Assembly: GCF_020520425.1 (NCBI RefSeq)
Contig: NC_079491.1
Coordinates: 7,365,143-7,429,142 of the forward strand
From: Spinacia oleracea
Lineage: Eukaryota; Streptophyta; Magnoliopsida; Caryophyllales; Amaranthaceae
Length of the DNA: 64,000 bases
Reading direction: 5' to 3'
Shown here one piece after another: positions 17,641 to 48,501 of the stretch (positions are counted from its first letter, which is position 1; every line of letters starts with the position of its first letter). Both the position numbers and the translations under genes were made by a program. Below the pieces are notes generated by a model. That model ran no database searches and was not told where the DNA came from. It was given only the letters and a program-made list of their open reading frames with translations.

Positions 17641-17951
17641 TGCCGTACGAAAATTATAACGCGACTCAACTGTGAAATTGTGAAAGCCCATGGGACAAGC
17701 ATTGACAACACCAAGCCATGGGCTGGCACAAAGCCTGATTTCATGACCATTAATATTATCCGATATGACCCGAGTTATTTAATCTCGACCCGACAACCCA
17801 TGACTGACTGCGAACCCAATTTGAGGGTCAAAATTAGAAAATCCAAGGAGAAAACCTTATTCTCTCATTCTTCCTCTTCTAAACTTCTAACCGTCACTCT
17901 CCATTTTGCAAACTTGTAAAGCATTTTGGCTGGTTGTTATCCTTTGAAAAA

Positions 17952-22949: not shown

Positions 22950-24112
22950 ATGGTAACGATGAAAGACAGGAAAAGGCAAAGGAGAAGGAGAAGATCACTG
23001 CAAGTAGACAGGTATTTGCCTCCTGAATTGTGCAGGGAAGTCTTTGCAAGGTTGCCTACCAAAACCCAAAACCCTATTAAGATTCAGGTGTGTTTGTAAA
23101 ACCTGGCTTTCTTTAATTGACTCCCCTGATTTCACTTATATGCATCTTAAGCTTTACAGCAACAATTATCACAAGACTCATTTGATTTTTGAGAACAATA
23201 TGTTCAAGATGTCAGTTCGTCAAAGGGACACATTAAAGAGAAGTGCGAAATTTACAATGGATGCTCCAAATTTTAGGGTGGTTAAGGAAAGTAATATGAT
23301 TAACGGGTTGATGTTAATGGAGAGGCGGAAGAGAGAAGTACGTTTGTGGAACCCCTCTATAAACAGGTCCTTAAAACTCCCCCCTTGTCCCAAAGTTGTT
23401 GATCCCAAAGTTATATTTGTGGTATATTATTATCATCTAGGATTCGCACCATCTTGTAATGATTATAAGGTGATTTCTTTTATATTAAGGATTCCGCCAT
23501 TAATGGAGGTTGAATGTGCAGTCTATTCACTTCAAGATCGCGTTTGGAGGGTTTTTAAGCCCAGCTGTATGATTGGTCTCTCTATCTGGGCTTTACGGGA
23601 GGCTTTATGGACATGCCTTTACTTTACAAGGAGCTCTATATTGGATACTCAACATTCTAGGTTGCAGAAAAAATCTTTGTTTTGACGTTGATGCTGAGAA
23701 TTTTAACTTTCTGGAGTTGCCATCTACTGGGGATAAGGATAACATGATGATGCTTAAGTTTATATTTCTTCTTGGTGGGTCATTAGCTGTTTTCGGTATT
23801 TCTCCATTGAAACGCTGCATATGGGTTCTGGAAAAAGATCAATCATGGCGCCAAGAATTTTCTGGAAATTCCACATCTGATGATGATGATGCTTATGGTT
23901 TATTTTGGTCTTGCGAAGATTCATTGGCAGGTAGAAACCTCTTATACAATGAAAGTAATGGTACCTTCTTGATAAGGTTCAACGAAAAAGCGAGTTTGTA
24001 TAACATTACTAGTCATCGGATACGCCATCTGCGAAAAACTGTCAAGTTCACCTACATGGATACTTATGTCGAGAGCTTGGTGTTGCACAAAAAATCAGAT
24101 CTAGTGACCTAA
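22950..24112 (+). pseudogene. F-box/FBA gene beta1, two frameshifts
   Basis: It aligns throughout with intact beta3. The N-terminus is arginine/lysine-rich (KRQRRRRR) and the F-box is YLPPELCREVFARLPTK. A 7-bp tandem duplication (AAAACCC twice, about 23,060-23,074) then shifts the frame before TLLRFRCVCKTWLSLIDSPD. One extra base at about 23,625 (ACTTTACAAGG versus ACTTTCAAGG in beta3) shifts it again. The C-terminal part, FIFLLGGSLAVFGISPLKRC, a DDDD tract, and DTYVESLVLHKKSDLVT, is preserved. The long uninterrupted frames between the lesions suggest recent inactivation. Confidence 0.88.
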
Positions 24113-24149
24113 GTTCGACCTCTCTCTGGCATGAAAATAATGATCCAAT

Positions 24150-24670
24150 CCGTGCTAGTCTTTTGGGATGTCAATGAGCCTAACGAGTCCGAATAACATT
24201 TTGAATTTCGTTTAATAAATGATACTAGTTCGAATAACTTGGTGTTCGGCTCGTGTAGACTGGCGATCAGCTCGTCCGTATTCGTTTATAAGTTCATTTA
24301 AAGCTCGGTCAATTAAGCTTGAATTTTAAGTTAGAACTAAGTTGCAATTATTTTGTTAGACTGACTTTTAGAATATTTTTATTTTACGAGTATTAGCAAA
24401 TATACTATGCAAAAAAATTATTTTAATTGGTTAATATTTTAAAATGATATTACGTTTAAATTCGATCTTGCTTGTTTATCAAGGCTCGTTTATATTGATA
24501 TAGCTCGGCTCGACTCGAGCTTGAAGTTAAACGAGCTACTCGTGAGGTAAGTTTGAACAATAAAAAACTTAAACGAGTCAAGCTCGAACAGGGAAAATGA
24601 AAGTTCAGTTAGGTCGAGCTCAGAAATTTCTTATCAAGCTTAGCTCGAACAACCAATTTCTTATCGACTC
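24150..24670. mobile_element. Degenerate repeat rich in GCTCGA/TCGAGC words
   Basis: It has many CTCGGCTCG, AACGAGTC and GAGCTCG words in both orientations, typical of decayed hAT-type non-autonomous plant repeats. It is present downstream of beta1 but not at the same point after the beta2 scrap in block B. No clear ends. Confidence 0.4.
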
Positions 24671-26072
24671 TTTAACATAGCTACTAGTCTTGAAAATAAT
24701 AGTAGTTTTGAAGCTGATTTTGGTTTGATTAAAGTTAGCTACCAATTAGTGAAAAAAGTCTTTTCTTGATTTGCAAACGAGAATCAAGTTACTATAAGGT
24801 ATGACTTTATATTTTTATGTTTCATATGCGTCAAAAAGGAGTGTCTCATGATGTTTTCGTCCATCTTAAAGTTAAATAAATAATTTTTATTTATTTAGGT
24901 GGTAAACAATAAAATTTTCATATTGGATGTGATAATCTAATATTTTACCAATCAAATTACTTAAACTACTTCGCTTTATGTGACGTATGCATACCTCAAT
25001 AAAATAAATCGATGGAACTCAATTAAGATCAACTATCTACAAGGGTCATCTCCATACCCACAAATATTTTATCAAATAAGATATCTAAAAAGAGGGATTA
25101 ATAATCAAATGCGATAAAATAAAATGCAAATAACACGTAAATTATATATATAAAGTTTTTTTTTTTTAATGTGAATAGTAAAAGTAATGGGACTTGTGAG
25201 GAGTCCGTCTTTATCACATTCTCTTATTATGATTGAAGGGGAATTAACAATCTGTTGCACAAAAGTTGGCATTCATAGATAAAAGATCAACTGTTGAGAG
25301 ATAAAAGTAATATCACCTAATTTAGTATTTTTGTAGGTTTTGTCCAGCTGTAACTATAGACAAACCGGGATTCAAAACGAAGATATAATCATTCAAAACA
25401 AGGCTCTACATGCCCTCAACAAGCTAGCCAAATTTCAACAAAATCCAACGGCCAGGATTCCGTCAAATGATAACTTTGTGAATGAACAGTCATAAATCCT
25501 CTTATGTCATAAGCATACATCAAACGCGGCTCAAGACATTCAAGATAAGTCAACTCATTTAATCCCAAGTATATTAAACATAGAACCTTATATGTTAGGC
25601 TCATAAACACGAATTAAAGACTTACTCATGCAACAATTGTGCTAGATGCGCAAAATAAAAACATTATTTCGGCGTTCTGACATTACACGAAATCTCAATC
25701 TAGAATAAGTGAGACGAGTCAGATGACTACTAGCACGACTAGATCTCCGTGCACTCAAAGCAAACATTCATCTGTAATACAAGTTTACGTTCAAATTTTT
25801 TCCATCCCAATTTATAATTCGTGTCATCCTTATAACTTATTAAAAAATAAACATGTTAATAAAACTAAAAATAATAATAATAGAAGGAAAAAAGAAGCAT
25901 GAAAGACAAGGCATGAAGTTGACTGATCAATGCGAAGATGAAGGCATATAGTTCTTGGTCGTCTTAAAAATGTCAAAAAAAACCCCAAACATTCATACAT
26001 GTGTTTGACACATGGGGAGTACACCAAAAGATTGCTATACCCTAATATCGCCATTACAGATTGAATTCGATA
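24671..26072. other. beta1 3' flank with orphan PP2-B upstream sequence
   Basis: No gene. 24,880-25,830 matches 31,980-32,850 and 50,165-50,940. 25,898-25,990 matches 51,044-51,135, the stretch just before the PP2-B start codon in block C, including CATATAGTTCTTGGTCGTCT. The match stops about 30 bp before where the start codon should be. Confidence 0.7.
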
Positions 26073-26157
26073 ATTATAATGCGACACAAATGTGAAAGCC
26101 CATGGGGCAAGCATTGACAACACCAAGCCATGGGCTAGCACAAAGCCTGAGTTCACC

Positions 26158-26650
26158 GCTAGATCTGTCAAAAATTAACCCGACCCAAACTGAAAATATT
26201 GGGCCTTGAACAAGATTTTATAACCCATAAACTGATTTTATCCGAACCCGAACAACCCGAAAAGTAATGGGCCAAAATTCGACCGAACCAGTTTTATACC
26301 CTACCGATTGAAAATCATTGTATTTATAGTAATAAATGAGATTACAGGGAATTTTAAGCATAGTAAACACGTTATTTTATTATTGTTGGTGGTAATATAT
26401 TTTAATTTGAAATATACGTCATTTTATGGTTGAATTTGACAAAATATAAATGTGTGTAGGAAAATTTGTAATTTTGTACCCTGTATTTGGTATACTTATT
26501 TCCAAATTAATGAAAATATAATACGCGTTTTAAAATCTCTCGTCCCGTTGGGCCGATCCTTATTGAACAAGCATTTGTAAAACCCATACTCACCGACTCA
26601 ATTTAACCCAAAAAAAAAAAAAAAAATTAACAACCCAACCCCACCTACAC
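26158..26650. mobile_element. hAT-like insertion in the alpha3 upstream region
   Basis: The interval is flanked by GTTCACC on both sides (26151-26157 and 26651-26657). The preceding bases (A and C) would make it an imperfect 8-bp duplication, the size used by hAT elements. Block A lacks the insert at the equivalent place. Inside are AACCCGACCC-type words near both ends and a poly-A run. The inverted termini are weak, so the class is tentative but the insertion itself is well supported. Confidence 0.65.
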
Positions 26651-26880
26651 GTTCACCATCATTACGATATAACCCGAGTTATTTAATCTCGAGATTCTCG
26701 ACCCGACGACCCATGACCGACTTTAAACCCAATTTGAGAGTTCATTCTTCTCACTAGCCAAAATTAGAAAATCCAAGGAGAAAACCCCAGTCTCTCATTC
26801 TTCCTCTTCTAAACTTCTAACCGTCACTCTCCATTCTGCAAACTTGCAAAGCATTTTGGCTGATTGTTGTCCTTCCAAAA

Positions 26881-28029
26881 ATGAGGGTTCGGAAACTGCG
26901 AGCACCATTGCCGGAAAACAAGTATTTAACACCAGATCTATGGAGTGAGGTCTTGCTTAGGTCGCCGCCGAAAACCCTCTTACGATTCAGGTGTGTCTGT
27001 AAATTATGGTGTTCTTTAATTGATTCTCCTGATTTCATTTCTATGCATCTCAAAACTTATAAGAACAATCAATTATTATCAACTGAACATGTACCCAAAA
27101 CATGCTTCGATTCTGTGTTCGTAATTCGTCGCAGTGACACTACAACTAGAAAAGTTGCTCAACTTGTTAAGGATTCGGAATCCTCTATGATTTCTGAATG
27201 TGCTATGATTGATGGGTTAATGTTGATGGGCTGTTATAGTTCGAATGATTCGAATTCAAAAGACTTGAGTTTGTGGAACCCTTCTATTAGAAAATTAATT
27301 CCGATTCCCCTTTGCCCTCTTAAAATTAATAATTTTGTTGCTGTTGAATATCATTTGGGATTTGCTCCTCTCAGTAAGGATTATAAGGTGGTTGTTTTTG
27401 AGCTTGGTGATTTAAATTTAAATGCTTCAAAATTGTCTGTTGCAATTGCAATTTATTCAGTTCGTGATCGTCTTTGGCGAATGAAACCCAACTGGAGCGA
27501 TTTTCCCAAGTGGTGTTTAGAATTAATGCAGGCGAGGGATGGGGCTGTTTTCTCCCAAGGGGCATTTTATTGGAGACCTTATTATCAATACTTGAAATGT
27601 CTAGGAGAAGAATCAAATACCCATCTTCTGTCCTTCGACGTTGAATCCGAAGAATTTAGTTTTCTAAAGTTGCCGGATATTGGGGAAGAAATGCGCAAGT
27701 TCATTTTTCTCCTTGGTGGGTCATTAGCTCTTTTTGGTATTTCTAAATCAGAAGCTTGTATATGGGTAATGGAAAAGAGTTGTGGAAAGGATCCGTGGCG
27801 ACAATTCTCTTCTGGAGATTCTGATACAGATACCTACGAATCCTTAAATCGTTGTTCAATGCATAATTTGCATTTTTCGCACATAGGAAATACCGATGTG
27901 TTGTTGATACATTACTTTAACAAACTGATGTTTTATAACATTACAAGTCATCAAGTACAACATAGAAAACATTTCCGTTGTTTACATATGGATATTTATG
28001 TGGAGAGCTTGGTGCTGCACAAAGTATAG
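26881..28029 (+). CDS. F-box protein with FBA-type domain (alpha3), intact
   Basis: Open frame of 382 residues from the ATG at 26881, equivalent to the alpha2 start. Same F-box (LTPDLWSEVLLRSPPKTLLR, FRCVCKLWCSLIDSPDF) and FBA blocks (LWNPSIRKLIPIPLCP, YHLGFAPLSKDYKVVVFEL, VAIAIYSVRDRLWRMKPNW, THLLSFDVESEEFSFLKLPD, FIFLLGGSLALFGIS). It ends ESLVLHKV because TAT in alpha2 is TAG here, which removes the last 13 residues of the alpha2 tail. The conserved domain is complete, so function is plausible. A CAG|GTAATAA donor-like site follows at 28101/28102. Confidence 0.93.
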   Translation: MRVRKLRAPLPENKYLTPDLWSEVLLRSPPKTLLRFRCVCKLWCSLIDSPDFISMHLKTYKNNQLLSTEHVPKTCFDSVFVIRRSDTTTRKVAQLVKDSESSMISECAMIDGLMLMGCYSSNDSNSKDLSLWNPSIRKLIPIPLCPLKINNFVAVEYHLGFAPLSKDYKVVVFELGDLNLNASKLSVAIAIYSVRDRLWRMKPNWSDFPKWCLELMQARDGAVFSQGAFYWRPYYQYLKCLGEESNTHLLSFDVESEEFSFLKLPDIGEEMRKFIFLLGGSLALFGISKSEACIWVMEKSCGKDPWRQFSSGDSDTDTYESLNRCSMHNLHFSHIGNTDVLLIHYFNKLMFYNITSHQVQHRKHFRCLHMDIYVESLVLHKV

Positions 28030-30731
28030 GAAGGTGAAACGTCAAGCTCACTCGTATAAAAGGGACAGTATCACATAATGGCTGATTCTGAGAGGTGACA
28101 GGTAATAATAATGCTTATTTATCTGTGGGCTGTTTGCTACTTGTTTTAGTAGTTTTGTCATTGTCAAATTGCCAAAATAAAATAAAAATTATGCGTAGTT
28201 TTTGTCTTACTAAATGGTTAGCTAATTTCCCACAACATGTTACTAGTTCTTAGCAAAGTTTCCCAAGTACTCCGTGTTTATTATTTGATGTGTTTCGTCA
28301 TGTTAAGAATGAGATACTTGTAAATTGTAATGTTTGTTTAGTTGTTGTCTTATTGTGATTATCAAAAGGAAAAGAATGGAGTGTGAGCCTTAATTCCATT
28401 TTCCTATATTTCTTTCCTTGCTCAACTTGAAAACCAAACACTACTTTGAAAATAAATAAAATGTTAGGAAAAATATTATGATGGCGAATATCTCACCATG
28501 ATGATCTGCACAAAAATACTGCAGTATTGAAAATGAAAATGGGGCAGAGTAAGATTTTTTTTTTTTTTTTTTTGTCTTAGCGTTGAGAGTTTCACTTGTG
28601 TAGTTGTGTTAATATTGATGGTGGATTGGTGGTTGGGGTTCACAATTCTTATGCCTGGATCTGAGTTCTGATTTCGATAGAAATATGCACATGAGTGATT
28701 GCCACTATTGTCTAGGTTGATTCTTGGTATTAGTGAGAACTGGGCAAAAATGATTGTAGATGTTTAAAATACACATCGAATCATATAGCATTATTGTCAT
28801 GGGCAGTGTAGAATTCCACAGCAGGAGAGGAGATTTGAATATTTATTTATCAACCAGCACATGAAATCAAGGTGCATGTTTGTGAATCATGTGATTATGT
28901 GAATGTCTGCGTTTTGCTCTACTAAAGTAGTCACCATCATAAAAGCCTGTCGAAACTATTAAGATTTAACCACAATGAATCGGGCTGCAGAAATGCATAG
29001 GTTGGCCAAAGGTTGCCCCAGTTATAGACTTATAGCAGTTTTTTGCTTGCTTCACATGTCCTTAGCAGAGGGGAAACAATGAGTTATTGCAAGATGATTT
29101 GAAGTGTGAACTACCTTTTTTCCTGGGATATAACGCTGAGCGTAGCATAAAGAGAGCTAGACCACTCTGTTCCTTCAAATTTGAAATATTCTTTTATCCC
29201 TTTGTTCTGAATACTGATAAGCAGTAGCATTAGAAATGGCCACATATCTAGCTCACGAGAACTAGCTTCAACACATCATTCACAGATTCACTGATATGTT
29301 AGGGTTTTCCAGCAACATAAGCTGCGACAAGTCACCAATTATAATGTTTTTCAAGAATTTGAGTTTGTGTAAACTCAAGCGGTTTAGTTATTGAGAGTAG
29401 AGTAATGTTTTGAATCCCCAAAGACTATCCTAGAAAAATGACTGGCATGGCCTGCTATCTGAACCACCTCCACCTTTTTGGGGCCTCAGCCACATGAGTT
29501 TGCTGCTTCAACCAACCCTGTCACAACTACTCAAATATACTGAAATCAAAATAAAGATTGCTATTGTTCTTTCCATTTCGGTATCTCCCCATCTTTTCCG
29601 CTGCCTCGTTTACCTATATGTTTTGTTTGAGGTATTAGTAGAAAATAGAGGAAGCAGGGGATAGCAATAGCATGATATTGTGACTCTAGAATAGAAAGTC
29701 AACTTTCTTTATCTGTTGTCTCTTGTTTTTCTAAGGAAGAAGCGAAGCCATAACTTGAATTAGAAGTGAGTTTTGGCCTTACTGATGGAGACCTACCTGT
29801 TAGGGTGTAATCTCTGAAAATGTTGCAAGATTTATTTAAGCTGTTTGTTGAATACAGAGCATAGTTTTGGAAACTAACAGTACAGGACTGAAGGTTAATT
29901 GAGAGAAATACGCATGCAGTTTGAAGATGAATTGAACTACTCATTTTACACTTCACACATCCCTTACCCTTTAGTTTTGGTAGTATATGTTAAAGAAAGA
30001 ACAGCTTCACACAATTCATAGTTTTGGGTAAGACTTAAGAGGGATTTGTTAAGGAAAGAACAACTTTTTTGAAATATGTGATGAATTTTATAAGACCTTG
30101 GTGCAGAGGGGGGGCTTTCAAAAGGATGTAGAGTTGACATTTTATGAGAATTATGGTAATTTTGACAGTTTTTTGTTGTATTGTACTGTATGTTTCTTCT
30201 TCTCACTTTTACCATTATTGATGTTCATTTATATGCATGTAACGCTTTTAATGTTTATCGGTTTTACACCATCATGATACTGAACCATCATTTCATTCAA
30301 TTTCTCCCATCTCTATGCATATTTCCACTTGATACATTATGTGAGCCACCCCATTCCTCTTACCCTCATTTTGTATTTCAAGTTCACAAGAAAGAACTAA
30401 AGTTCTAGTCTTTATATAACCATGGCCTAACCTCATAAGTAAGGGAACAGTTGCATCCATCCGAATATTTATACGACTCAATTGAATTGAATTTATCATT
30501 CCAAAATTGATACAACTTCAATTTATATCAGGAGAGAGAGAAAGAGAGGGAGAGAACTAAATAGTGTTCTGCATATGAATTAGATTATTAGTTATCAACT
30601 TGTTGCACCATTAGTTGTGGATTAGACCTTTTTAATATAATGTCTTTTCTTGTTCCAGGTTAGCCTTCAAATAGGTGCATCCAGAACTCGAATTGTTCCT
30701 TTCGGCATCTTTTTCACATCTAGCAAATAAG
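28030..30731. other. alpha3 3' flank, homologous to 19,140-22,071
   Basis: No independent gene. It keeps the acceptor-like TTCTTGTTCCAG (ending 30658), followed by a short exon-like stretch that runs directly into beta2 coding sequence at 30,732. There is a poly-T run at 28,556-28,573. Confidence 0.6.
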
Positions 30732-31109
30732 GATAACATGATGATGCTCAAGTTTATATTTCTTCTTGGTGGGTCATTAGCTGTTTTCGGTATTTCTCCA
30801 TTGAAACGTTGCATATGGGTTATGGAAAAAGATCAATCATGGCGCCAAGAATTTTCTGGAAATTCCACATCTGATGATGATGATGATGCTTATGGTTTAT
30901 TCATGTCTTTGGAAGATTCATTGGCAGATAGAAACCTCTTGTACAATGAAAGTAATGGTACCTTCTTGATAAGGTTCAACGAAAAAGCGAGTTTGTATAA
31001 CATTACTAGTCATCGGATACAGCATCCGCCAAAAACTGTCGAAGAATTCTACCTGGATACTTATGTTGAGAGTTTGGTGTTGCACAAACAATCCAATCTG
31101 GTGACCTAA
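30732..31109 (+). pseudogene. beta2: C-terminal scrap of an F-box/FBA gene
   Basis: It encodes only the last about 125 residues of the beta protein: DNMMMLKFIFLLGGSLAVFG, CIWVMEKDQSWRQEF, a DDDDD tract, GTFLIRFNEKASLYN, DTYVESLVLHKQSNLVT. There is no F-box and no proper start. The left edge is the fusion point of a 1,666-bp deletion relative to block A (ATAAG shared at 22067-22071 and 23733-23737). The frame remains open, so the lesion is the deletion itself. Confidence 0.9.
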
Positions 31110-31967: not shown

Positions 31968-32871
31968 AAACTACGGAGTATGGAGTAGTAATTTTTTCAT
32001 ATTGCATTTGACAATCCAATATTTTACCAAGCAAATTACTTATAACTACTCCACTTTATGTGACGTAGGAGTATGCGTATTTCATTAGAATACATCAACG
32101 GAACCTAATTAAGATCAACTATCTACAAACATCACCTCTCAAACGCCACAACATCAAATAAGCAATCTATCAAGATGGGTTAATAATCAAATACGAAAAA
32201 ATAAAATGCAAACAACATGTGAATTATATATGAAGAGCTTCTTCAATGTGAAGAGTAAAAATCACTGGACTTGTGAGGAGTCTGCCTTTATCACACTCTC
32301 TTAGCAAATCTGTTGCACAAAAGTTGGCAACTCATCAATACATCAATACATTTATAAGTTTTGTCCAGCTGCGTCTATACTCTACAGACAAATCAGGATT
32401 CATAACGACGATCTAACCGTTCAAAATAAAGTTCTACATATCCTCAACAAGCTAGCCAAATTCTAGCAAAATCCAACAGTTGAAATTCCATCAAATGAAA
32501 ACTCTGTGAAGGAATATTGTCATAAACCCTCTTAGGTCATAAGCATACATCAAACGTGGCCCAAGACTTTCAAGATAAGGCAACTCATGTATCCCAAGTG
32601 GATTTAACATGTTGAGTTCATAAACACAAATTAAAAGACTTACTCGTGCAACAATTGTGTTGAACACGCACAAAAAAAACATAATTCTGACGTTTTGACT
32701 TTGCACGGGATCTCAAACCAGAAGTAAGCGAGACGCGTCAGATGACTACTAGCACGACTAGATCTCCATGCGCTCAAAGCAAACATTCATTTGTTATTCA
32801 AGTTTCACGTTCGAATTTTTCCATCCCAATTTATAATTTGTATTATTTTAATCTTTATGGCTTATTCAAAA

Positions 32872-32902
<31 letters not shown>

Positions 32903-32906
32903 TAAT

Positions 32907-33613
32907 ATGGTGGTAACCACCAAGGCAATAATCTCAAAAATAGAGCGATTAGGGTGCGAATATGGTGGTTTCACGTCCATAATCCGGCAGGGTTTCCGGC
33001 GGCATTAGGTTCAGCGACGGGACCAGCAGGTTTTTGCGGTGGTTGCGGTCAGGGTGGTTTCAGCCGGTGGTTTCTGGTTTGCGGTAGTTTCTGGGGCAGA
33101 CTTCGACGGCAGTTTAGGAACTGTTTTTGCGGCGGTTACGGTTCAAATTTCAGGCGAGGTTGCGTGTGGGTTCAGGCGGAGGGTTTCTACTCCAGTATTG
33201 GGTCAGTCCGAGTAGGTTTCAAGAAGTTTACGGGGCAGTTTTGGGTCAGTTTCGAGGAGGTTTCAAGCGACTTTTTTGGGAAGTTTGTGATCAGTTTCCG
33301 GTGAGTATTCTTTGGGCAATTTGTGCGGTTTGTGGCAGTTTGTTTACGGGGAAGTTTGTGATCAAGAGAAGTTTGTTGTGGGGTGTGAAATTGCGAATTG
33401 GTTGCGGTGTAAAATTAAAGAAACAAAGTGGTTTGTGTTGCGAAGTGACGGTGGTTTTGTGGCGAAATCAGTTTCAGTTTTGGGCGTTGAGTTTCTTGCA
33501 GTTTGGTGCTGTCGATTTCAGTTTCGGTGTTCAGATTTTGGTAATTCGGTGTGTTCAGTTTCAGTTTCCGGTGCAGTGACGTTGGAGTTACTTTTTGGTT
33601 GAAGGGCTTTGAT
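32907..33613 (+). other. 5' UTR of the non-LTR retrotransposon
   Basis: It begins just after a (TAA)n tract (about 32,889-32,906) and is G/T-rich, in sharp contrast to the AT-rich surroundings, with recurring GTTTC(C/A)GG/CAGTTT words. Two long overlapping open frames (32,954-33,304 and 33,127-33,579) encode glycine/phenylalanine-rich low-complexity sequence. I read them as by-products of composition, though an upstream small ORF cannot be excluded. Confidence 0.55.
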
Positions 33614-36600
33614 ATGGCGGCTTCTGTGGAGAAGTTTCATTGCCCTTTTGTGGGACTTAGCGGGTGCCAGGATGGAGGTGGGCGTGGTTTGGTGAGGAGT
33701 TCTCTGCTCACTCACTTACGGGATCGTCACTGTTGCTTTGGTGTGCGGGATGCTACCCGTCATTCCCTTACTACCAATTTGCAGGTTTTTACTTCGGCTG
33801 AGGTGACCTTTCGTCGTATGGGAATTTGGCTATGTGGAGATTGTTTCAAGACTCATACTCATCGTACTAGGTGTCGACATGGCAGTGGTTCTAGTACTGT
33901 TTTTGTGGACCCTCCTGATTCTGGGGATGGTATTCCCCGTTTTATTCTCTATGGTATTCAAAAACCCCTAGCTCCTACTTCCGAGCTGCCTTCTTCTGAT
34001 GCGCCTCGGGAACATCATTTTTCTTTTGATGTTGCTCTTCTAGACTCTTTGTTGTCTAAGCGGTTGCGTTCTGTGAAATCCATCCCTCCCAAATGTCGTT
34101 TGGGTTTTTCGCGGGTTCTGAAAGGGGCGCTTGATAAGGTGATTTGCAGATCAGATGACATCGCTTGTTGGGTTCAGTTGCTCGTGTTACCTCTTTGTGT
34201 CCTCACGACTTTTTCTCCGCGGAGTAATCGTGAGTGTTCATCCGGTGTTAGGCGTCGTCGTCAGGAAGAGAGTATCACCGCTGCTATTCGTTCTTGGGGT
34301 GTGCCTGGTGGTTCTGAGCAGCTTGTTATGGACACATTGGCTAGCGTGTCTCCCCCTCTATTAGATGTTGACGACGACCATGATTTGGCGGAGCGTAATA
34401 TTAAGCAATGCAAGAGAAAAATTTCTGACGGTCACTACACGGCTGCCGTTAGAGTTCTTTCGTCCTCAGGTCTTGCCCCTTACAATGATGCTACTCTTGC
34501 TGATTTGCAAGCAAAGCACCCTTCAGTTCCGGAACCTACCTTTCCGGATATCCCAGTTGATCATCACCTTACTGCTTCCTCCGCTGTTGTGATGGAGCAG
34601 ATTAGGGGCTTTCCGCGTGGTACTTCGTGCGGTAGAGATGGCTTGCGTGCTCAACACCTTTTGGATTGCTTGGGTGGTGCTGCTGTAGCTGTTTCTGATG
34701 AGTTGGTGGACTCTATCACTCAGGTAGTTAATCTCTTTCTTGCTGGAAAGTGTCCTGCTGAGCTTGGTGGATATATTGCTAGTGCTCCTCTTACGCCACT
34801 TGTTAAGCCGGGTGGTGGTATTCGGCCTATTGCTGTGGGCACTATTTGGAGGCGTCTTGTTTCTAAGGTTGGGGCTGCTATGATTGGTCCGCGTTTAGGG
34901 AACTACTTTGGGGGGCTTCAGTTTGGAGTTGGGGTTCCAGCAGGTGGTGAGGCTATTCTCCATGCTGTCAATCGTTTGGTTGAGGCTCGTGGGGCCGATG
35001 TTGGCCTCTCTATGTTATTGGTGGATTTTCAGAATGCATTCAATTTGGTTGATCGTTCGGCTTTGTTGCGTGAGGTTCGGCTACATTGTCCTGCTCTTTC
35101 GCGTTGGGTTGAATTCTGCTACTCTTCTAGCACGGTTGTATTATGGGGAGCATACCTTGTGGTCTTGTCAAGGTGTGCAGCAAGGGGATCCTCTCGGCCC
35201 TTTGCTATTTTCTTTGGTTCTACATCCATTGGTGTGTCGAATCAGGGACTCTTTTGATCTATCTCTGCAGGCGTGGTACTTGGATGATGGCACTATCGTT
35301 GGTGACACTTTGGTGGTTGGAAAGGTCTTGGAGTTGATTTTGGAGGAGGGTCCTCATTTAGGTCTCCATGTTAATGTTGAGAAGACAGAGGTTTTCTGGC
35401 CTTCGGAGGACCCACGCAGTCGTCTAGAGGGTGTCTTTCCTTCTGATATTGCTCGTCCCGCGCTTGGTGTTAAGTTGCTTGGTGGTCCAGTCAGTACGGA
35501 TTCCTCTTTTTGTAAGGAGTTGGTTTCGCGACGGGTGTCGAAGACTGTTGTGTTGATGGATGCTATAGCTAAGCTTAATGATCCCCAGTGTGAGTTGTTG
35601 CTTCTTCGTGCGTGCACTGGAGTTTCTAAACTCTATTTTGCTATGCGCACTTGTCCACCTCATCTTTTTGAAGCGGCCCAAGTTTCTTTTGATGTGGCTC
35701 TTCGGGCTTCTTTAGAGCGTATCGTGACTGCTTCGGGACCTGGGTTCGGTGGCTGGCAATGGCGTCTTGCTACCTTGCCTTATTCGTATGGAGGATTGGG
35801 TGTTTATTCAGCTGGTGATGTTCGGCATTATGCTTTTCTTGCATCCCGTTTGCAGTCTTCTGGTTTGCAGGATTCGCTTCTTCGGCTTTCAGGTGTTGAT
35901 GGTCCGGGGTCGGCCTTTGATGATGCTCTTGGTCTTTTCAACAGGACCGTGGAGAGCGACCTTATGAGTAGCCCTAGTGAAATCGCTGCCCCCACTCTCA
36001 TGAAGAAATTGGCAGACATATATTTCACGAAGGTTACTGCTGATGCGGTATCCGCCTACTCCTTATCTTCGCGTCATGTTGCCCTTTGGAAATCCCAGCA
36101 GGGGGATCACTCCTCACCTTGGTTGCGGGCAGTCCCCATCTCGGGTTTAGGCCAGACTATGAACGGTAAGACTTATCGTTCGGTTCTTTGCTATCGGTTG
36201 GGTATTCCGTTGTTCTCTGATTCGACGCCGTGTTCTGCTTGCTCTCGGGTTTTCGATGGGGATATTTATGGGGATCATGCCGTGTCTTGTGCTGGGATCG
36301 TGGGTATCAAACATCGACATAATGTTGTTCGTGATACCCTTTTGGATATTTGCTGCCGGTCGGGGATTTCTGCTCGAAAGGAGGTTGATGTTGGGCTGAC
36401 TAGTGAGAGTGATGGAGCTCTTCGTCCTGCAGATATATTGCTTTATTCTTGGGATGGCGGTGTAGATGTGTGTGTTGACTTGACTGGGTCTTCACCTATG
36501 GCGCAATCTGGGTTGTCAGACTTCGTTTCGGGTCGGGTTGTGGCGGTTGCTGCGCAGCGGAAGCAGGTTAAGTATGCGGCACGTTGTAGGGCTTTGGGTT

Positions 36601-36801
36601 ACGGTTTCTTTCCTTTTTCCTTCTCTTCTTTTGGGGAGTTAGAGAAGGGGCTGTTTCGTTGCTGAAGCGGGTCCAGACGTACTCCAGGGCTCAAGACATA
36701 GGGGCACGGGCAGCTGCCCACATTTTCAGCAGGATCGGGTTCGCCATAGCTAGAGGAGTGGGGGCCCAGATTGTATCTCGGCTCCCCACCAACTTCTTGT
36801 A
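33614..36801 (+). pseudogene. Retrotransposon ORF: zinc fingers, reverse transcriptase, CCHC, RLE endonuclease (two frameshifts)
   Basis: The ATG at 33614 is followed by a C2H2 finger (C10, C18, H34, H39; C-x7-C-x15-H-x4-H) and a second Cys/His cluster (CGDCFKTHTHRTRCRH). RT blocks follow: GTSCGRDGLRAQHL, LTPLVKPGGGIRPIAVGTIW, QFGVGVPAGGEAI, LLVDFQNAF (catalytic Asp), QGVQQGDPLGPLLF, YLDDG (catalytic Asp pair) and GLHVNVEKTEVF. Near 36,231-36,290 is C-x2-C-x11-H-x4-C, then RHN, KEVD, RPADILLYSW and VCVDLT, a PD-(D/E)XK-like nuclease layout. Two lesions: one base lost near 35,139 between RT motifs A and B, and one near 36,650 that truncates the tail. The true end is the TAG at 36,799, by comparison with the second copy. 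Length is about 1,060 codons if the lesions are ignored. Confidence 0.85.
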
Positions 36802-36853
36802 GTTTACTTGATCTTTGTAGCTTGTTAAGCTTGTAACGTTTTGGTGGTTTCCC

Positions 36854-36922
<69 letters not shown>

Positions 36923-36924
36923 TG

Positions 36925-37400
36925 ATTTGGGATACCCTTGTTGATGTTTGTTATCGCTCTGGGATTTCGGCGCGGAAAGAGGTTGATATTGGTCTATCTG
37001 GAGGGAACGATGGAGCTCTCCGACCAGCAAACGTGTTGCTCTACTCTTGGGACCGGGGCTGTGATGTGTGTGTTGACTTGACGGGATCATCTCCTTTGAC
37101 ACAGTCTGGGTTGTCTGGCTTTGCTCCGGGCCGGGTTGTGACTGATACGGCTATTCGGAAACGGGTCAAGTATGAAGCACATTGTAGGGCAATTGGTTAT
37201 GGCTTTCTTCCGTTCTCTTTCTCTTCTTTGGGGGAGCTGGATAAGGATGTTGTTGCGTTGCTGAAGCAGATTCATAAGTTTTCTATGACACAGGACATTG
37301 GGGCTCGTGCTGCTACTCATATTTTCACTAGGATAGGCTTTGCTATAGCCAGGGGAGTGGGGGTCAGATTGTATCTCGGCTGCCCACTAACTATTTGTAA
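36925..37400 (+). pseudogene. Second, 5'-truncated copy of the RLE retrotransposon
   Basis: It begins in the endonuclease region (VIWDTLVDVCYRSGISARKE) and continues DIGLSGGNDGALRPANVLLY and VCVDLTGSSPLTQSGLSGF through the conserved end GARAATHIFTRIGFAIARGVG. One base lost near 37,365 shifts the last residues; the expected stop is TAA/TAG-like at the RLPTNYL position. It differs at many sites from the first copy, so it is a separate insertion of a related element, not a local duplication. It starts directly in the (TAA)n tail of the first. Confidence 0.85.
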
Positions 37401-37432
37401 AATATTTGACTTTGTTAGCATTTGATTTACAG

Positions 37433-37495
37433 TAATAAAAAAAAAAAAAAAAAAAAAAATAATAATAATAATAATAATAATAAGTAGTAGTAGTA

Positions 37496-37541
<46 letters not shown>

Positions 37542-37545
37542 TAAG
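37433..37545. repeat. Poly-A and (TAA)n tail of the second copy
   Basis: After a short 3' UTR (TTTGATTTACAGTAATAAA), a run of A is followed by (TAA)n with a few TAG interruptions. It matches the style of the tail at 36,857-36,921. Confidence 0.8.
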
Positions 37546-38147
37546 GAAAATGATAATAATAAGGAAAATTTGTTAATATTAATCCAACATTTGGCCGATT
37601 TTGTTTAATTAAGTCTACTTGTGTGGTACTTTTGAATAACCCCACCTTTAAGCCCTAAATATTTTTATTAGGCCAAAGTGATCGGCTACCGGGAACAAAG
37701 TCAACGTTTCTTTCGTTGACAACCTAAATTTGGTGTCCCTCCTAAAATGCTTGCCACGTCATTCATCAATTGCCAACCGTCCTCCATTCTCAATTTGTTT
37801 TTAAATACTAATTTTCTTGGTACCTATTATTTCAAAAGGATTTCAGCATCCAAATTATTAATATGAAAAAAGTCAAATTGAAATTATAAGGCAAAAATGA
37901 AACAAATCTGATTTTCAATTTCGTATTATGTTTTTCATACAGTTCAAATACAAAATAATACGTGATGGATAAACATGAGATCAAATGAAAAAATTGTACG
38001 CAAATGTAAAAACTCCTCTATTCCACTCCATAAACAAAACTCCTTTTCTGCATCCCTTTAATTAATCTGTATAGAAAATTCCAAAATGAGAAATTTTAGG
38101 CTAGAGCAACTGAATTAAATTATCATCTAGTTATAATAAATAATAAA
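37546..38147. other. AT-rich spacer, no gene
   Basis: No coding sequence or recognisable element. It separates the retrotransposon pair from the MITE/satellite array. Confidence 0.5.
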
Positions 38148-41100
38148 TACTCTCTCCGTTCCTTTAAGTTCTATCCATTTGGAACAGTGGGTGGTTTTTA
38201 AAAAAATTCGAATCTTGGTTTGTAAAGGTGTATAAGTGTAATGATTGAGTGTAAAAAAATGATTGTATGTAAGAGATTATAATAAAAAAAAAAGATAAAT
38301 TAATAAAGAAATAAGGTAAGAGAGAGGAGTGATAATGATGGGTGAGAGTGGGTATTGGGGAAGGCAAAATAATTAAATAATAGGGTGGAGAAATTTAGGT
38401 GGGAATATAGGTAAAATCTTTAGGTATATATTTTTGGTAATTAGATAGAAATGTAAGGGTATTTTAGGATAAATTGTATGTCCAAAAATAGAAACGGATA
38501 GAACAACAAGAAACGCTTAAAAAGGAAACTGATAGAACATTAAGGAACGGAGGGAGTAATAAATAATAAATAATAAATAATAAGTACTCCCTCCGTTCCT
38601 AAATGTTGTATCCATTTGGGAAAGTGGGGTGTTTTTAAGAAATTTGGAATCTTGGTTTGTATTGCTATAAGTGTAATGATTGGGTGTAAAAAAATGATTG
38701 TATATAAGAGATTATAATAAAAAAAGAAAAAGAGAAAATAATTAAGAAATAAGGTAATAGAGAGGAGTGATAATGATGGGTGAGAGTGGGTATTGGGGAA
38801 GGCAAAATAATTAAATAATAGGGGTGGAGAAATTTAGGTGGGAATATGGATAGAATCTTTAGATATATATTTTGGTAATTAGATAGAAATGTAAGGGTAT
38901 TTTAGGATAAAATGTATATCCAAAAATAAAAACGGATAGAACAAAAAGAAACACTTAAAAAGGAAACGGATAGAACATTAAGGAACGGAATAAATAATAA
39001 ATAATAAATAATAAATAATAAATAATAAATAATAAATAATAAATAATAAATAATAAATAATAAATAATAAGTAATAAGTAAACTCCCTCCGTTCCTAAAT
39101 GTTGTATCCATTTGGGAAAGTGGGGTGTTTTTAAGAAAATTGGAATCTTGGTTTGTATTACTATAAGTGTAATGATTGGGTGTAAGAAAATGATTGTATG
39201 TAAGAGATTATAATAAAAAAAAAAAAAAATAATAATAAAGAAATAAGGTAAGAGAGAGGAGTGATAATGATGGGTGAGAGTGGGTATTGGGGAAGGCAAT
39301 TTAAATAAATAATAGGGGTGGATTCGGTATATATTTTGGTAATTAGATAGAAATGAAAAGGTATTTTAGGATAAAATGTATGTCCAAAAATAAAAACGGA
39401 TAGAACAAAAAGAAACACTTAAAAATGAAACGGATAGAACATTAAGGAACGGAGGGGGTAATAAATAAAAAATAATAAATACTCTGTAATAAGTAATAAG
39501 TACTCCCTCCGTTCCTAAATGTTGTGTCCATTTGGGAAAGCGGGGTGTTTTTAAGAAAATCGTAATATTGGTTTGTATTGCTATAAGTGTAATGATTGGT
39601 TGTAAGAAAATTATTGTATGTAAGAGATTATAATAAAAAAAGAAGATAAATTAATAAATAAATAAAGTACGAGAGAGGAGTGATAATGATGGGTGATAAA
39701 AGAGGTGAGAAAGTGGGTATTGAGGAAGGCAAACGAATCAAATAATATGGTGGACAAATTTAGGTGGGAATATGGGTAGAATCTTTAGGTATATATATTT
39801 TGGTAATTAGATAGAAATGTAAGGGTATTTTAGGATAAAATGTATGTCCAAAAATAGTAACGAATAGATAAAAAAGAAACGCTTAAAAAGGAAACGGATA
39901 GAACATTAAGGAACGGAGGGAGTAATAAATAATAAATAATAAATAATAAATAATAAATAATAAATAATAAATAATAAATAATAAATAATAAATAATAAAT
40001 AATAAATAATAAATAATAAGTAATAAGTAATAAGTAATAAGTAATAAGTAATAAGTAATAAGTAATAAGTAATAAGTAATAAGTAATAAGTAATAAGTAA
40101 TAAGTACTCCCTCCATTCCTAAATGTTGTATCCATTTGGGAAAGTGGGGTATTTTTAAGAAAATTGGAATCTTGGTTTGTATTTCTATAAGTGTAATGAT
40201 TGGATGTAAGAAAATGATTGTATGTAAGAGATTATAATAAAAAAAGAAGAGAGAAAATAATAAAGAAATAAGGTAAGAGATAGGAGTGATAATGATGGGT
40301 GAGAGTGGGTATTGGGGAAAGCAAAATAATTAAATAATAGGGGTGGAGAAATTTAGGTGGCAATATGGATAGAATCTTTAGGTATATATTTTGGTAATTA
40401 GATAGAAATGTAAGGGTATTTTAGGATAAAATGTATGTCCAAAAATAAAAACGGATAGAACAAAAAGAAACACTTAAAAAGGAAACGGATAGAACATTAA
40501 GGAACGGAGGGGTAATAAATAATAAATAATAAATAATAAATAATAAATAATAAATAATAATAATAATAAATAATAAATAATAAATAATAAATAATAAATA
40601 ATAAATAATAAATAATAAATAATAAATAATAAATAATAAGTAATAAGTAATAAGTAATAAGTAATAAGTAATAAGTAATAAATAATAAATAATAAGTACT
40701 CCCTCTGTTTCTTTTTGTTGTATCCGTTTCCATTTTAAGCGTTTCATATTGTTGTATCCATTTAGAATCTATTCTATTTTTGGACATACATTTTATCCTA
40801 AAATACCCTTACATTTCTATCTAATTACCAAAATACTTAAAGATTCTACCCATATTCCCACCTAATTTTCCCCACCCATAATATTTAATTCTTTTCCCTT
40901 CCCCATATACCCACTCTCTCACCTCCTTTAACACCCATCATTATCACTCCTCTCTCTTACCTTATTTCTTTATTATTTTCTCACTCCTTTATTTATTATA
41001 ATCTCTTACACTCAATCATTTCTCTTATACCCAATCATTACACTTATACCCATACAAACCAATATTCCAATTTTATTAAAAACCACACCAGATTCCAAAT

Positions 41101-42208
41101 GGATACATCAAAAAGAAATGGAGGGAGTAATAAGTAATAAGTAATAAGTACTCCCTCCATTCCTAAATGTTGTATCCATTTGGGAAAGTGGGGTATTTTT
41201 AAGAAAATTGGAATCTTGGTTTGTATTGCTATAAGTGTAATGATTGGATGTAAGAAAATGATTGTATGTAAGAGATTATAATAAAAAAAGAAGACAGAAA
41301 ATAATAAAGAAATAAGGTAAGAGATAGGAGTGATAATGATGGGTGAGGAAAGCAAAATAATTAAATAATAGGGGTGGAGAAATTTAGGTGGCAATATGGA
41401 TAGAATCTTTAGGTATATATTTTGGTAATTAGATAGAAATGTAAGGGTATTTTAGGATAAAATGTATGTCCAAAAATAAAAACGGATAGAACAAAAAGAA
41501 ACACTTAAAAAGGAAACGGATAGAACATTAAGGAACGGAGGGGGTAATAAATAATAAATAATAAATAATAAATAATAAATAATAAATAATAAATAATAAA
41601 TAATAAATAATAAATAATAAATAATAAATAATAAATAATAAATAATAAATAATAAATAATAAATAATAAATAATAAATAATAAATAATAAATAATAAGTA
41701 ATAAGTAATAAGTAATAAGTAATAAGTAATAAATAATAAATAATAAATAATAAATAATAAGTAATAAGTAATAAGTAATAAGTAATAAGTAATAAGTACT
41801 CCCTCCATTCCTAAATGTTGTATCCATTTGGGAAAGTGGGGTATTTTTAAGAAAATTGGAATCTTAGTTTGTATTGCTATAAGTGTAATGATTGGATGTA
41901 AGAAAATGATTGTATGTAAGAGATTATAATAAAAAAAGAAGAGAGAAAATAATAAAGAAATAAGGTAAGAGATAGGAGTGATAATGATGGGTGAGAGTGG
42001 GTATTGGGGAAAGCAAAATAATTAAATAATAGGGGTGGAGAAATTTAGGTGGCAATATGGATAGAATCTTTAGGTATATATATTTTGGTAATTAGATAGA
42101 AATGTAAGGGTATTTTAGGATAAAATGTATGTCCAAAAATAAAAACGGATAGAACAAAAAGAAACACTTAAAAAGGAAACGGATAGAACATTAAGGAACG
42201 GAGGGGTA

Positions 42209-42605
42209 ATAAATAATAAATAATAAATAATAAATAATAAATAATAAATAATAAATAATAAATAATAAATAATAAATAATAAATAATAAATAATAAATAA
42301 TAAATAATAAATAATAAATAATAAATAATAAATAATAAATAATAAATAATAAATAATAAATAATAAATAATAAATAATAAATAATAAATAATAAATAATA
42401 AATAATAAATAATAAATAATAAATAATAAATAATAAATAATAAATAATAAATAATAAATAATAAATAATAAATAATAAATAATAAATAATAAATAATACA
42501 TAATAAATAATAAATAATAAATAATAAATAATAAATAATAAATTATAAATAATAAATAATAAATAATAAATAATAAATAATAAATAATAAATAATAATAA
42601 TAAAT
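42209..42605. repeat. Longest pure tract of the heptamer satellite (AATAAAT)n
   Basis: About 56 nearly perfect copies of a 7-bp unit. Other tracts lie at 38,990-39,080, 39,924-40,104, 40,514-40,696, 41,545-41,796, 43,043-43,442, 43,865-44,221, 44,952-45,344 and 45,769-45,900. Minus-strand open frames over these tracts (YYLLFII repeats) arise because 21 bp is three units; they are not genes. Confidence 0.95.
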
Positions 42606-44951
42606 ACTCCGTAATAAGTAATAAGTACTCCCTCCGTTCCTAATTGTTGTATTCATTTGGGAAAGTGGGGTGTTTTTAAGAAAATTGTAATATTGGTTTG
42701 TATTGCTATAAGTGTAATGATTGGGTGTAAGAAAATTATTGTATGTAAGAGATTATAATAAAAAAAGAAGATAAATTAATAAAGAAATAAGGTACGAGAG
42801 AAGAGTGATAATGATGGGTGATAAAAGAGGTGAGAGAGTGGGTATTGGGGAAGGCAAACGAATCAAATATTATGGTGGAGAAATTTAGGTGGGAATATGG
42901 GTAGAATATTTAAGTATATATATTTTGGTAATTAGATAGAAATGTAAGAGTATTTTAAGATAAAATGTATGTCCAAAAATAGTAACGAATAAATCAAACG
43001 CTTAAAAAGGAAACGGATAGAACATTAAGGAACGGAGGGAGTAATAAATAATAAATAAAAAAATTTATAAATAATAAAAAATAAATAATAAATAATAAAT
43101 AATAAATAATAAATAATAAATAATAAATAATAAATAATAAATAATAAATAATAAATAATAAATAATAAATAATGAATAATAAATAATAAATAATAAATAA
43201 TAAATAATAAATAATAAATTATAAATAATAAATAATAAATAATAAATAATAAATAATAAATAGTAAATAATAAATAATAAATAATAAATAATAAACAATA
43301 AACAATAAATAATAAATAATAAATAATAAATAATAAATAATAAATAATAAATAATAAATAATAAATAATAAATAATAAATAATAAATAATAAATAATAAA
43401 TAATAAATAATAAATAATAAATACTCCGTAATAAGTAATAAGTACTCCCTCCGTTCCTAAATGTTGTATTCATTTGGGAAAGTGGGGTGTTTTTAAGAAA
43501 ATTGTAATATTGGTTTGTATTGCTATAAGTGTAATGATTGGGTGTAAGAAAATTATTGTATGTAAGAGATTATAATAAAAAAAGAAGATAAATTAATAAA
43601 GAAATAAGGTACGAGAGATGAGTGATAATGATGGGTGATAAAAGAGGTGAGAGAGTGGGTATTGGGGAAGGCAAACGAATCAAATATTATGGTGGAGAAA
43701 TTTAGGTGGGAATATGGGTAGAATATTTAGGTATATATATTTTGGTAATTAGATAGAAATGTAAGAGTATTTTAGGATAAAATGTATGTTCAAAATAGTA
43801 ACGAATAGATCAAAAAGAAACGCTTAAAAAGGAAACGGATAGAACATTAAGGAACAGAGGGAGTAATAAATAATAAATAAAAAAATTTATAAATAATAAA
43901 AAATAAAAAATAAAAAATAAAAAATAAAAAAAAATAATAAATAATAAATAATAAATAATAAATAATAAATAATAAATAATAAATAATAAATAATAAATAA
44001 TAAATAATAAATAATAAATAATAAATAATAAATAATAAATCATAAATCATAAATCATAAATCATAAATCATAAATAATAAATAATAAATAATAAATAATA
44101 AGTAATAAGTAATAAGTAATAAGTAATAAGTAATAAGTAATAAGTAATAAGTAATAAGTAATAAGTAATAAGTAATAAGTAATAAGTAATAAGTAATAAG
44201 TAATAAGTAATAAGTAATAAGTACTCCCTCCGTTCCTAAATGTTGTATCCATTTGGGAAAGTGGGGTATTTTTAAGAAAATTGGAATCTTGGTTTGTATT
44301 GCTATAAGTGTAATGATTGGGTGTAAGAAAATGATTGTATGTAAGAGATTATAATAAATAAAGAAGAGAAAAAATAATAAAGAAATAAGGTAAGAGAGAG
44401 GAGTGATAATGATGGGTGAGAGTGGATATTGGGGAAGGCAAAATAATTAAATAATATGGGTAGAGAAATTTAGGTGGGAATATGGATAGAATCTTTAGGT
44501 ATATATTTTGGTAATTAGATAGAAATGTAAGGATATTTTAGGATAAAATGTATGTCCAAAAATAAAAACGGGTAGAACAAAAAGAAACACTTAAAAAGGA
44601 AACGGATAGAACATTAAGGAACGGATGGGGTAATAAATAAAAATTAAAAAATAAAAAATAATAAATAATAAATAATAAATAATAAATACTCCGTAATAAG
44701 TAATAAGTACTCCTTCCGTTCCTAAATGTTGTATCCATTTGGGAAGTGGGGTGTTTTTAAGAAAATTGTAATATTAATTGGTTTGTATTGCTATAAGTGT
44801 AATGTGATTGGGTATAAGAAATTGATTGTATGTAAGAGATTATAATAAAAAAAGAAGATAAATTAATAATTAAATAAGGTACGGGAGAGGAGTGATAATG
44901 ATGGGTGATAAAAGAGGTGAGAGAGTGGGTATTGGGGAAGGCAAACGAATC

Positions 44952-45344
44952 AATAAATAATAAATAATAAATAATGAATAATGAATAATGAATAATGAAT
45001 AATGAATAATGAATAATGAATAATGAATAATGAATAATGAATAATGAATAATGAATAATGAATAATGAATAATGAATAATAATAAATAATAAATAATAAT
45101 AATAAATAATAAATAATAAATAATAAATAATAAATAATAAATAATAAATAATAAATATTAAATAATAAATATTAAATAATAAATAATAAATAATAAATAA
45201 TAAATAATAAATAATAAATAATAAATAATAAATAATAAATAATAAATAATAAATAATAAATAATAAATAATAAATAATAAATAATAAATAATAAATAATA
45301 AATAATAAATAATAAATAATAAATAATAAATAATAAATAATAAG
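44952..45344. repeat. Heptamer tract with an AATGAAT block
   Basis: About 15 copies of AATGAAT (44,974-45,078) are followed by AATAAAT copies with AATATTA interruptions. Each variant sits in its own block instead of being mixed, which fits local expansion of a single mutated unit. Confidence 0.9.
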
Positions 45345-45904
45345 TACTCGTTCCATTCCTAAATGTTGTATCCATTTGGGAAAGTGGGGTGTTTTTAAGA
45401 AAATTGGAATCTTGGTTTGTATTGCTATAAGTGTAATGATTGGGTGTAAGAAAATGATTGTATGTAAGGAATTATAATAAAAAAAGAAGAGAAATAATAA
45501 TAATAAAGAAATAAGGTAAGATAGAGGAGTGATAATGATGGGTGATAAAGGAGGTGAGAGAGTGGGTATATGGGGAAGGGAAAATAATTAAATAATAGGG
45601 GTGGAAAAATTTAGGTGGGAATATGGGTAGAATTTTTAGGTATTTTGGTCATTAGATAGAAATGTAAGGGGATTTTTGGATAAAATATATGTCCAAAAAT
45701 ATAAACGGATACAACAAAAGGGAACGCTTAAAATGAAAACGGATACAATATTTAGGAACGGAGGGAGTAATAAATAATAAATAATAAATAATAAATAATA
45801 AATAATAAATAATAAATAATAAATAATAAATAATAAATAATAAATAATAAATAATAAATAATAAATAATAAATAATAAATAATAAATAATAAACAATAAA
45901 TAGT

Positions 45905-46159
45905 TAGTTACAAAATAATAATAAAAAATGTTAATTAATAACTAAATAATAATTAATAATTAATAACTAAATAATACGGAGTATATAATAAATAATAACA
46001 ATATGTAATTGATTACTAAATAATTATAATTAATGATAAATATTAATATTAATAATAATAATAATTCATAATTAATAACTAATACCTAAATAATTAATAA
46101 CTAATATTCCGTAATTAATTAAGAAAAATAATATTAAATTCTAAATAATAAATTATATT
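45905..46159. other. AT-rich decayed satellite
   Basis: AATTAATAACTAAATAAT-like words without a strict period. Probably degenerate satellite at the edge of the array. Confidence 0.5.
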
Positions 46160-46697
46160 AATTAATAATAAATATTTAGTTTTGGTAGTATATGTTAAAG
46201 AAAGAACAGCTTCACACAATTCATAGTTTTGGGTAAGACTTAAGAGGGATTTGTTAAAGAAAGAACGACTTTTTTGAAATATGTGATGAATTTATACAAC
46301 TTCAATTTGTTATATCAGGAAAGGGAGAAAGAGTGGGAGAGAACTAAAGAGTGTTCAACATAATTATATGAATTAGACCATTAGTTATCAACTTGTTGCA
46401 CCATTAGTTAGCCTTCAAATACAGCCCAACTTATGGGCAATTACTAAGGTCAAAGTGAATTTCATTATGAGAAGTGATTCTGTTTTATATGCTACGACCA
46501 ATGGAACCTTGCTGATATTTTCTTTTATTTGTTTACTTTTTGAACTTTGAGATTCTCTAGATGGTTTTATTTATTAAAATAGAGGGATTTTAATAAATAA
46601 AGCATTGTGATTTCAGTTTTGTTCTATAGAAAACAAATAGATGATGAAGCTACCTAAAATATTTTCAAAAAAAACTTTGTTCAAGCTTCAATTCCAA

Positions 46698-48292: not shown

Positions 48293-48501
48293 GTGCCTGT
48301 CACAAGATGTATAAAAGATTAGCCTATAGTCTTATACGGATCGCGGAGTAGTATGCAATTATTCAGATTTTAGATCCAATTAATTTATGTTATTACTCTC
48401 ATGAGTCGTAGAATTAGGGTTTGATTTGAAGATCATAGTTACCTTGGGCGGTGCGCTTTACAGCTTAATTATTCATTCAAGTTATATACTGATCAAGTGT
48501 T

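Follow-up and report, generated by a model that had tools for sequence, protein, structure and literature searches.

Does a flowering plant carry its own mobile retrotransposons with a restriction-like endonuclease (RLE)? The question is raised by a 64,000-nucleotide stretch of the Spinacia oleracea genome (RefSeq assembly GCF_020520425.1, contig NC_079491.1, positions 7,365,143 to 7,429,142 of the forward strand; hereafter, the window), where positions 32907-36853 hold one frame-broken copy of a non-long terminal repeat (non-LTR) retrotransposon of about 3.9 kb. Among long interspersed nuclear elements (LINEs), L1 and RTE alone are named for land plants in PMC9033089, and for flowering plants Table 3 of PMC3747384 gives 233 L1 and 7 RTE families and no RLE clade. 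The best explanation of the spinach element (probability of about 0.91) is a recently active family of RLE-type non-LTR retrotransposons with the (TAA)n microsatellites of its host as insertion sites. This reading draws on the domain order and residues of the protein, the number of copies, their open frames and recent movement, the presence of arrays in one orientation at both ends, and the existence of TAA sites without the element.

The element and its protein

The copy in the window and its immediate surroundings are laid out as follows.

32868..32906, + strand: 5' flanking array of (TAA)n type, the probable insertion target (from the sequence; exact array 32886-32906)
32907..33613, + strand: 5' end and 5' untranslated region (UTR), in which the conserved start motif, GAGCGATTAGGG, lies near 32943
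33614..36802, + strand: single open reading frame (ORF), its frame interrupted in this copy by a short deletion near 35.13 kb and another near 36.65 kb
33641..33730, + strand: N-terminal C2H2-type finger, C-x7-C-x15-H-x4-H (read from the sequence, no Pfam match)
33833..33880, + strand: second Cys/His cluster, CGDC...HTHRTRCRH (read from the sequence, no Pfam match)
34805..35399, + strand: reverse transcriptase core (Pfam RVT_1, residues 398-596 of the intact copy L031, transferred to window coordinates; R2 profile)
36231..36290, + strand: zinc knuckle C-x2-C-x11-H-x3-C (read from the sequence)
36315..36660, + strand: putative restriction-like endonuclease region with RHN, RPAD-x14-D and KQVKY (motif shuffles; comparison with an R2 RLE profile; KX2KY as in PMC5678591)
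36803..36853, + strand: short 3' UTR ending in GGTGGTTTCCC (exact 21-base end, 134 occurrences in the genome)
36854..36921, + strand: (ATA)n array separating both insertions
36922..37436 (approximate; 3' end by reading), + strand: 5'-truncated 3' piece of a sister family, covering the RLE region, called copy 2 (72% amino acid identity over 108 residues)
37437..37562, + strand: A-run and TAA array after copy 2

In the window, the ORF is split into pieces at 33545-35257 and 34899-36665, whereas the same frame is open in other copies and encodes 1,063 residues. A comparison with four intact genomic copies reveals between 12 and 20 mismatches in 3,189 bases, a deletion of two bases near 35.13 kb and a deletion of one base near 36.65 kb, so that the two single-base lesions of a preliminary description of this locus are to be amended. 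The element end given there (36921) also overruns through the 3' TAA array, the true end being at about 36853. On the other hand, the reverse transcriptase (RT) motifs LLVDFQNAF, QGDPLGPLLF and YLDDG, the N-terminal Cys/His clusters, the C-terminal knuckle and the endonuclease-like tail are all located where that description had placed them, although the knuckle ends in H-x3-C instead of H-x4-C, a spacing off by one. A single ORF with N-terminal zinc fingers is found, the fingers being read by eye and without a Pfam match. The N-terminal finger of R2 has a form similar to that of the plant element.

The RT is of the non-LTR type, as indicated by RVT_1 and by R2 as the best matches in the Protein Data Bank (PDB). 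Pfam detects RVT_1 in the C-terminal piece of the window ORF (E 3.4e-8), with no match in the N-terminal piece and none in copy 2, and in the intact L031 the same family (E 5.7e-14) is the sole Pfam listing at E up to 10; no apurinic endonuclease (APE) domain is thus detected by Pfam in this copy, the one intact copy scanned. When the intact ORF is compared with the PDB, the top three matches are R2 chains (E 7.9e-6, 1e-5 and 7e-4), followed by a retron-type bacterial RT (0.0056), R2Bm (0.012), group II intron RTs (0.015 and 0.018), a chain whose only label is RNA-directed DNA polymerase (0.041) and, lower still, the chains with a LINE-1 label (0.084 to 0.14). The position of R2Bm itself just under the bacterial RT qualifies this R2-first ranking. 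Moreover, the two RT pieces of the window obtain scores of 61.4 and 30.5 with a profile built from three R2 RTs, values that none of 300 shuffles attains, the identity between the RT of the plant element and R2 being 24% over 148 aligned columns. Other searches contributed little: NCBIfam gave a group II intron RT match alone, below threshold (32.1 bits, cut-off 300), a PDB search with just the N-terminal half produced four matches attributable to chance (E 0.57 to 1.3), and no relatives were found in viral contigs, genome contigs, plasmids and phages, as expected for a plant element.

Beyond the RT, the window copy reads RHN, RPAD-x14-D and KQVKY, and R2Bm and R2Tg read RHN, KPD-x12-D and KxxKY (the printed stretch of PDB code 9nl2 stops before the K). 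The catalytic residues PD...D...KX2KY are thus all present, RPxD being one residue longer than the KPD of R2. The first K of KX2KY is the catalytic lysine (PMC5678591). Also, PDB code 8ibw differs from 8gh6 by two residues in the aligned stretch, and in it the D of KPD is replaced by A, which fits a catalytic role for this position. The pattern RPx(0-1)D-x12-14-D/E...KxxKY, in which the optional extra residue was permitted only after the sequence was seen, arises in 8 cases when the last 230 residues are shuffled 200,000 times, and in none of 200,000 when RHN or KHN is required before it; the window, translated in six frames, contains the pattern a single time. The flanks of other copies contain diverged families (39-49% identical) in which RPAD or RPVD, KKKKY and, where covered, RHN are mostly kept. 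The knuckle spacing is CX2CX10-11HX3C in two families, with H changed to Q in one family-3 piece, and the R2 pattern CX2-3CX7-8HX4C is unmatched. Finally, an alignment of plant RLE regions (five sequences, four families) scores 28.2 against the R2 RLE, and the window RLE alone scores 23.3; in both cases none of 300 shuffles (column shuffles for the alignment) reaches the score. The C-terminus would then correspond to a restriction-like endonuclease, and from these residues a PD-(D/E)XK fold and nuclease activity are predicted.

Copies, intactness and recent movement

A search of the genome (894,210,420 bases in 242 contigs) yielded at least 85 matches at 95% identity or more, the window's own included (85 scored among 2,224 first-look candidates). 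For the sister family, at least 150 matches at 83% identity or more are present (150 scored among 1,732 candidates). The 20 further copies that were fetched (L031-L050) are the best scoring ones. In 15 of them the MAASVEK start lies in an open frame, and 14 run uninterrupted to the normal stop, with 1,063 residues in 13 cases and 1,064 in one, which bears out the earlier expectation of intact relatives elsewhere in the genome. Over the 91 pairs formed by these 14 open copies, the uncorrected ratio of non-synonymous to synonymous substitution rates (dN/dS) is 0.28. The nearest neighbor lies at 0.13-0.35% divergence for 13 of the 14, the remaining copy (L047) being at 2.9%. This indicates that the family moved recently. 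About 0.1 million years would separate the two most similar copies if substitutions accumulate at 6.5e-9 per site per year.

The 5' UTRs of the fetched copies differ strongly among subfamilies, while the ORFs are mostly about 99% identical and a start motif of the GGCGAT type is still found in 13 of 21 sequences. One subfamily 5' pattern occurs at five places in the genome, four of them among the fetched copies. A modular exchange of 5' UTRs between subfamilies is possible.

TAA arrays and the probable insertion process

At the 5' side, the motif GGCGAT(T/A)A or GAGCGATTA is conserved in those 13 sequences (12 of the 20 loci and the window copy), and in all 13 an array of (TAA)4 or longer ends 3-36 bp upstream of it. 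As a background, a distance of 36 bp or less behind such an array is found for 0.4% of positions in the window outside the element, 0.6% in the whole window and 0.8% in the outer flanks. Among the remaining copies, L049 abuts an array, L036, L039 and L041 lie about 7, 5 and 17 bp from one, and L043 abuts an interrupted array. In total, 18 of 21 copies have an array within 36 bp of their 5' end (one of them interrupted), and even the truncated copies L039, L041 and L049 are preceded by arrays of 80 to 123 bp.

At the 3' side, 107 of the 134 exact 21-base ends in the genome run into (ATA)4. The orientation was evaluated in 30 sequences (the 20 loci, 9 more loci from the genome search and the window copy), in which 28 ends matched the end pattern: 26 continue into a strict TAA array, two into a singly interrupted one and none into TTA. 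L035, L042 and L046 have no 3' end that matches the pattern. These 3' arrays are often about 8-9 units long. Moreover, pieces of other RLE families are also contained in the arrays of the window, L039 and L050.

A comparison with unoccupied sites was made for one insertion, L048, through a search with its right flank, which has at least 41 matches, its own included (40 scored among 624 candidates). Five other places were fetched. At three of them (L051, L052 and L053) the left flank (96.4-99.2% identity) is joined to the right flank (96.8-98.6%) through a single uninterrupted TAA array, the element being absent, whereas L054 and L055 share the right flank only.

The occurrence of arrays on both sides and in one orientation fits a nick of one strand within the array, followed by target-primed reverse transcription. 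In such a process, a single protein would bind its own RNA, with the N-terminal fingers and linker contacting the TAA array, and the C-terminal nuclease would nick one fixed strand within it, the strand order being an assumption. The exposed TTA-rich 3' end could then pair with the AUA repeats at the 3' end of the RNA and prime reverse transcription. Finally, a cut of the second strand and its synthesis would finish the insertion, sometimes leaving 5'-truncated copies.

Two of the fetched copies show further structures. In L033, a 43-bp direct repeat with two differences (1161-1203 and 5259-5301) lies beyond the TAA arrays on both sides of the element. It is likely a long target-site duplication, which fits a staggered second cut. 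In L035 (about 3190-3290), part of the RT region stands in reverse orientation after a TAA array, an arrangement like that of inverted LINE insertions.

Several observations weigh against the interpretation of the spinach family as an RLE element inserting into TAA arrays. For the nuclease, one catalytic D reads N in window copy 2 (RPAN), and one family-3 piece has CPAD. The HH-suite probabilities of the likeness between the plant and R2 RLE regions are low (11.5% and 14.3%), one of six decoys, an F-box protein, scores 21.1 against the 23.3 of the window RLE, and copy 2 alone does no better than shuffles (82 of 300 reach its score). Also, a two-copy RLE profile recovered no R2 from the PDB, its single match (E 2.4) being due to chance. 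When the knuckle is included, the complete R2 pattern fits R2Bm and R2Tg but fails on the window copy, even in a relaxed form. For the copies and their arrays, the fetched loci favor young and open ones because they were chosen as best scoring, 27 of the 134 exact 3' ends are without (ATA)4, and L045 and L035 have no simple 5' array (L035 with its inverted piece). About 43 bp separate array and element in L033, an A-run precedes the TAA array of L046, and L042 has a different 3' end. In the comparison of the C-terminus with RLE profiles that had been suggested for this locus, no column shuffle reaches the alignment's score, and the probability of 14.3% makes it a weak match. As the profile scores are weak in absolute terms, the RLE assignment leans more on the residues, their order and their conservation.

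Elsewhere in the window, a large AT-rich tandem block (38133-46174) is composed of 464-bp units with a CTCCCTCCGTTCC-like sequence, mixed with (TAATAAA)n arrays of 7-base units; the CTCCCTCCGTTCC-like sequence presumably resembles a miniature inverted-repeat transposable element. A cluster of ORFs that by eye are F-box-like genes and fragments extends over 11348-31109 and 48493-49677 (at 11348, 15055, 17883, 23008, 26821, 30675 and 48493). An ORF at 792-1811 looks by eye like a remnant of a Ty1-copia RNase H/pol region, with a 73-bp tandem repeat just upstream (62-400).

Relation to known lineages

The RLE clades comprise CRE, R2, R4, NeSL and HERO, four of them mostly target-specific, to which Utopia has been added, from three supergroups (PMC4640811). 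Compared with R2 (R2Bm and R2Tg; PDB codes 8gh6, 9dou, 9nl3 and 9nl2), the spinach protein has RT, zinc knuckle, RHN, P-D...D and KxxKY in the same order. However, R2 is directed to 28S ribosomal DNA and the plant element to TAA, the knuckle is CX2-3CX7-8HX4C in R2 (PMC5678591) and C-x2-C-x11-H-x3-C here, and KPD-x12-D is replaced by RPxD-x14-D. Neither the 28S target of the R2 clade nor the U2 small nuclear RNA gene target of Utopia is found, TAA arrays being present instead and Rfam giving no match in the window. Hero and NeSL-related elements such as Togen, which inserts into (TG)n, are also RLE LINEs with microsatellite targets (PMC4640811), although Togen, likened here by its description only, uses another repeat and has fish hosts.

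The closest parallel in target is Dong from Bombyx mori, an RLE LINE of the R4 clade that resides in TAA repeats (PMC3774820), likened here by description only. A primer combining TAA repeats with the 5' end of Dong was employed in PMC3774820, where an upstream product of 21 nt (7 TAA) is reported. The common target and a similar protein layout would be in line with membership of the spinach family in the R4/Dong clade proper. Nonetheless, the host is a plant, and Dong, R4 and R2 carry ribozymes like that of hepatitis delta virus (HDV) at or near the 5' end (PMC3774820), whereas none was found here: nine loci are without an Rfam match of this kind up to an E value of 5, and none of 13 copies fits a simple descriptor (4 hits in 260 shuffled trials), a search without a positive control, from which variants could escape. 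Such membership is rather doubtful. A placement in the CRE clade is unlikely. The targets of CRE are spliced-leader genes, against TAA in this case. This placement could be the one made by the automated tool of the 2019 spinach repeat paper, since 642 full-length CRE and 22 R2 LINEs are counted with MGEScan-nonLTR in Table 1 of PMC6337768. These come from the same host and possibly overlap with the elements described here, but they are automated counts, given in that table without structure, target or activity, and the table has no L1 row, so its labels may be unreliable.

Two other explanations would leave the RLE or the target choice aside. A typical L1 or RTE of plants whose front end has degenerated would agree with the two LINE superfamilies given for land plants (PMC9033089), and both are, like the spinach element, non-LTR retrotransposons of plants. 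However, these have an APE endonuclease and (A)n, GTT or TTG tails (PMC9033089, PMC3747384), features not seen here: the intact 1,063-residue ORF of L031 contains RVT_1 only, R2 outranks LINE-1 in the PDB, the nuclease residues are R2-like, and all 28 matched 3' ends are followed by TAA arrays and not by poly(A) or TTG, the A-run of L046 notwithstanding. This explanation is scarcely credible. It is also highly improbable that insertion is indiscriminate and that the TAA arrays are products of the element, formed by slippage as a 3' tail, as in the Drosophila I element. I elements do end in TAA repeats (PMC3747384), and many of the 3' arrays have about 8-9 units, yet arrays are present at the 5' side too, even at the three truncated copies, and the three unoccupied sites have the array without the element. 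Self-made arrays were rejected on these grounds, although tail making may still add to the 3' array.

The interpretation as an RLE-type non-LTR retrotransposon in a seed plant, already put forward in the preliminary description, is thus supported by R2 chains ranking first in the PDB, the RT as the only Pfam domain, R2-like C-terminal residues and a specific target. A further proposal, for and against which the balance is about even, is that flowering plants have their own, still mobile clade of RLE LINEs, distinct from CRE, R2, R4/Dong, NeSL, Hero and Utopia, with an RPxD nuclease variant, TAA microsatellites as the target and several sister families that land repeatedly in common arrays. The titles and abstract openings searched contain no report of an RLE LINE with a target in a flowering plant, subscription papers, Repbase and supplements being outside this scope. 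Plant protein sets commonly include vaguely named proteins similar to the C-terminus, a circumstance that would reduce the novelty. The automated 'CRE' and 'R2' counts of 2019 (PMC6337768) also speak against it. Still, the combination of an RLE nuclease with TAA insertion is known from animals and absent from the flowering-plant lists of PMC3747384 and PMC9033089. Through a young RLE LINE that is multi-copy, retains open frames and has a defined target, this old branch would reach into the angiosperms, and target-primed insertion into a microsatellite could be tested in a plant alongside the R2 systems of animals.

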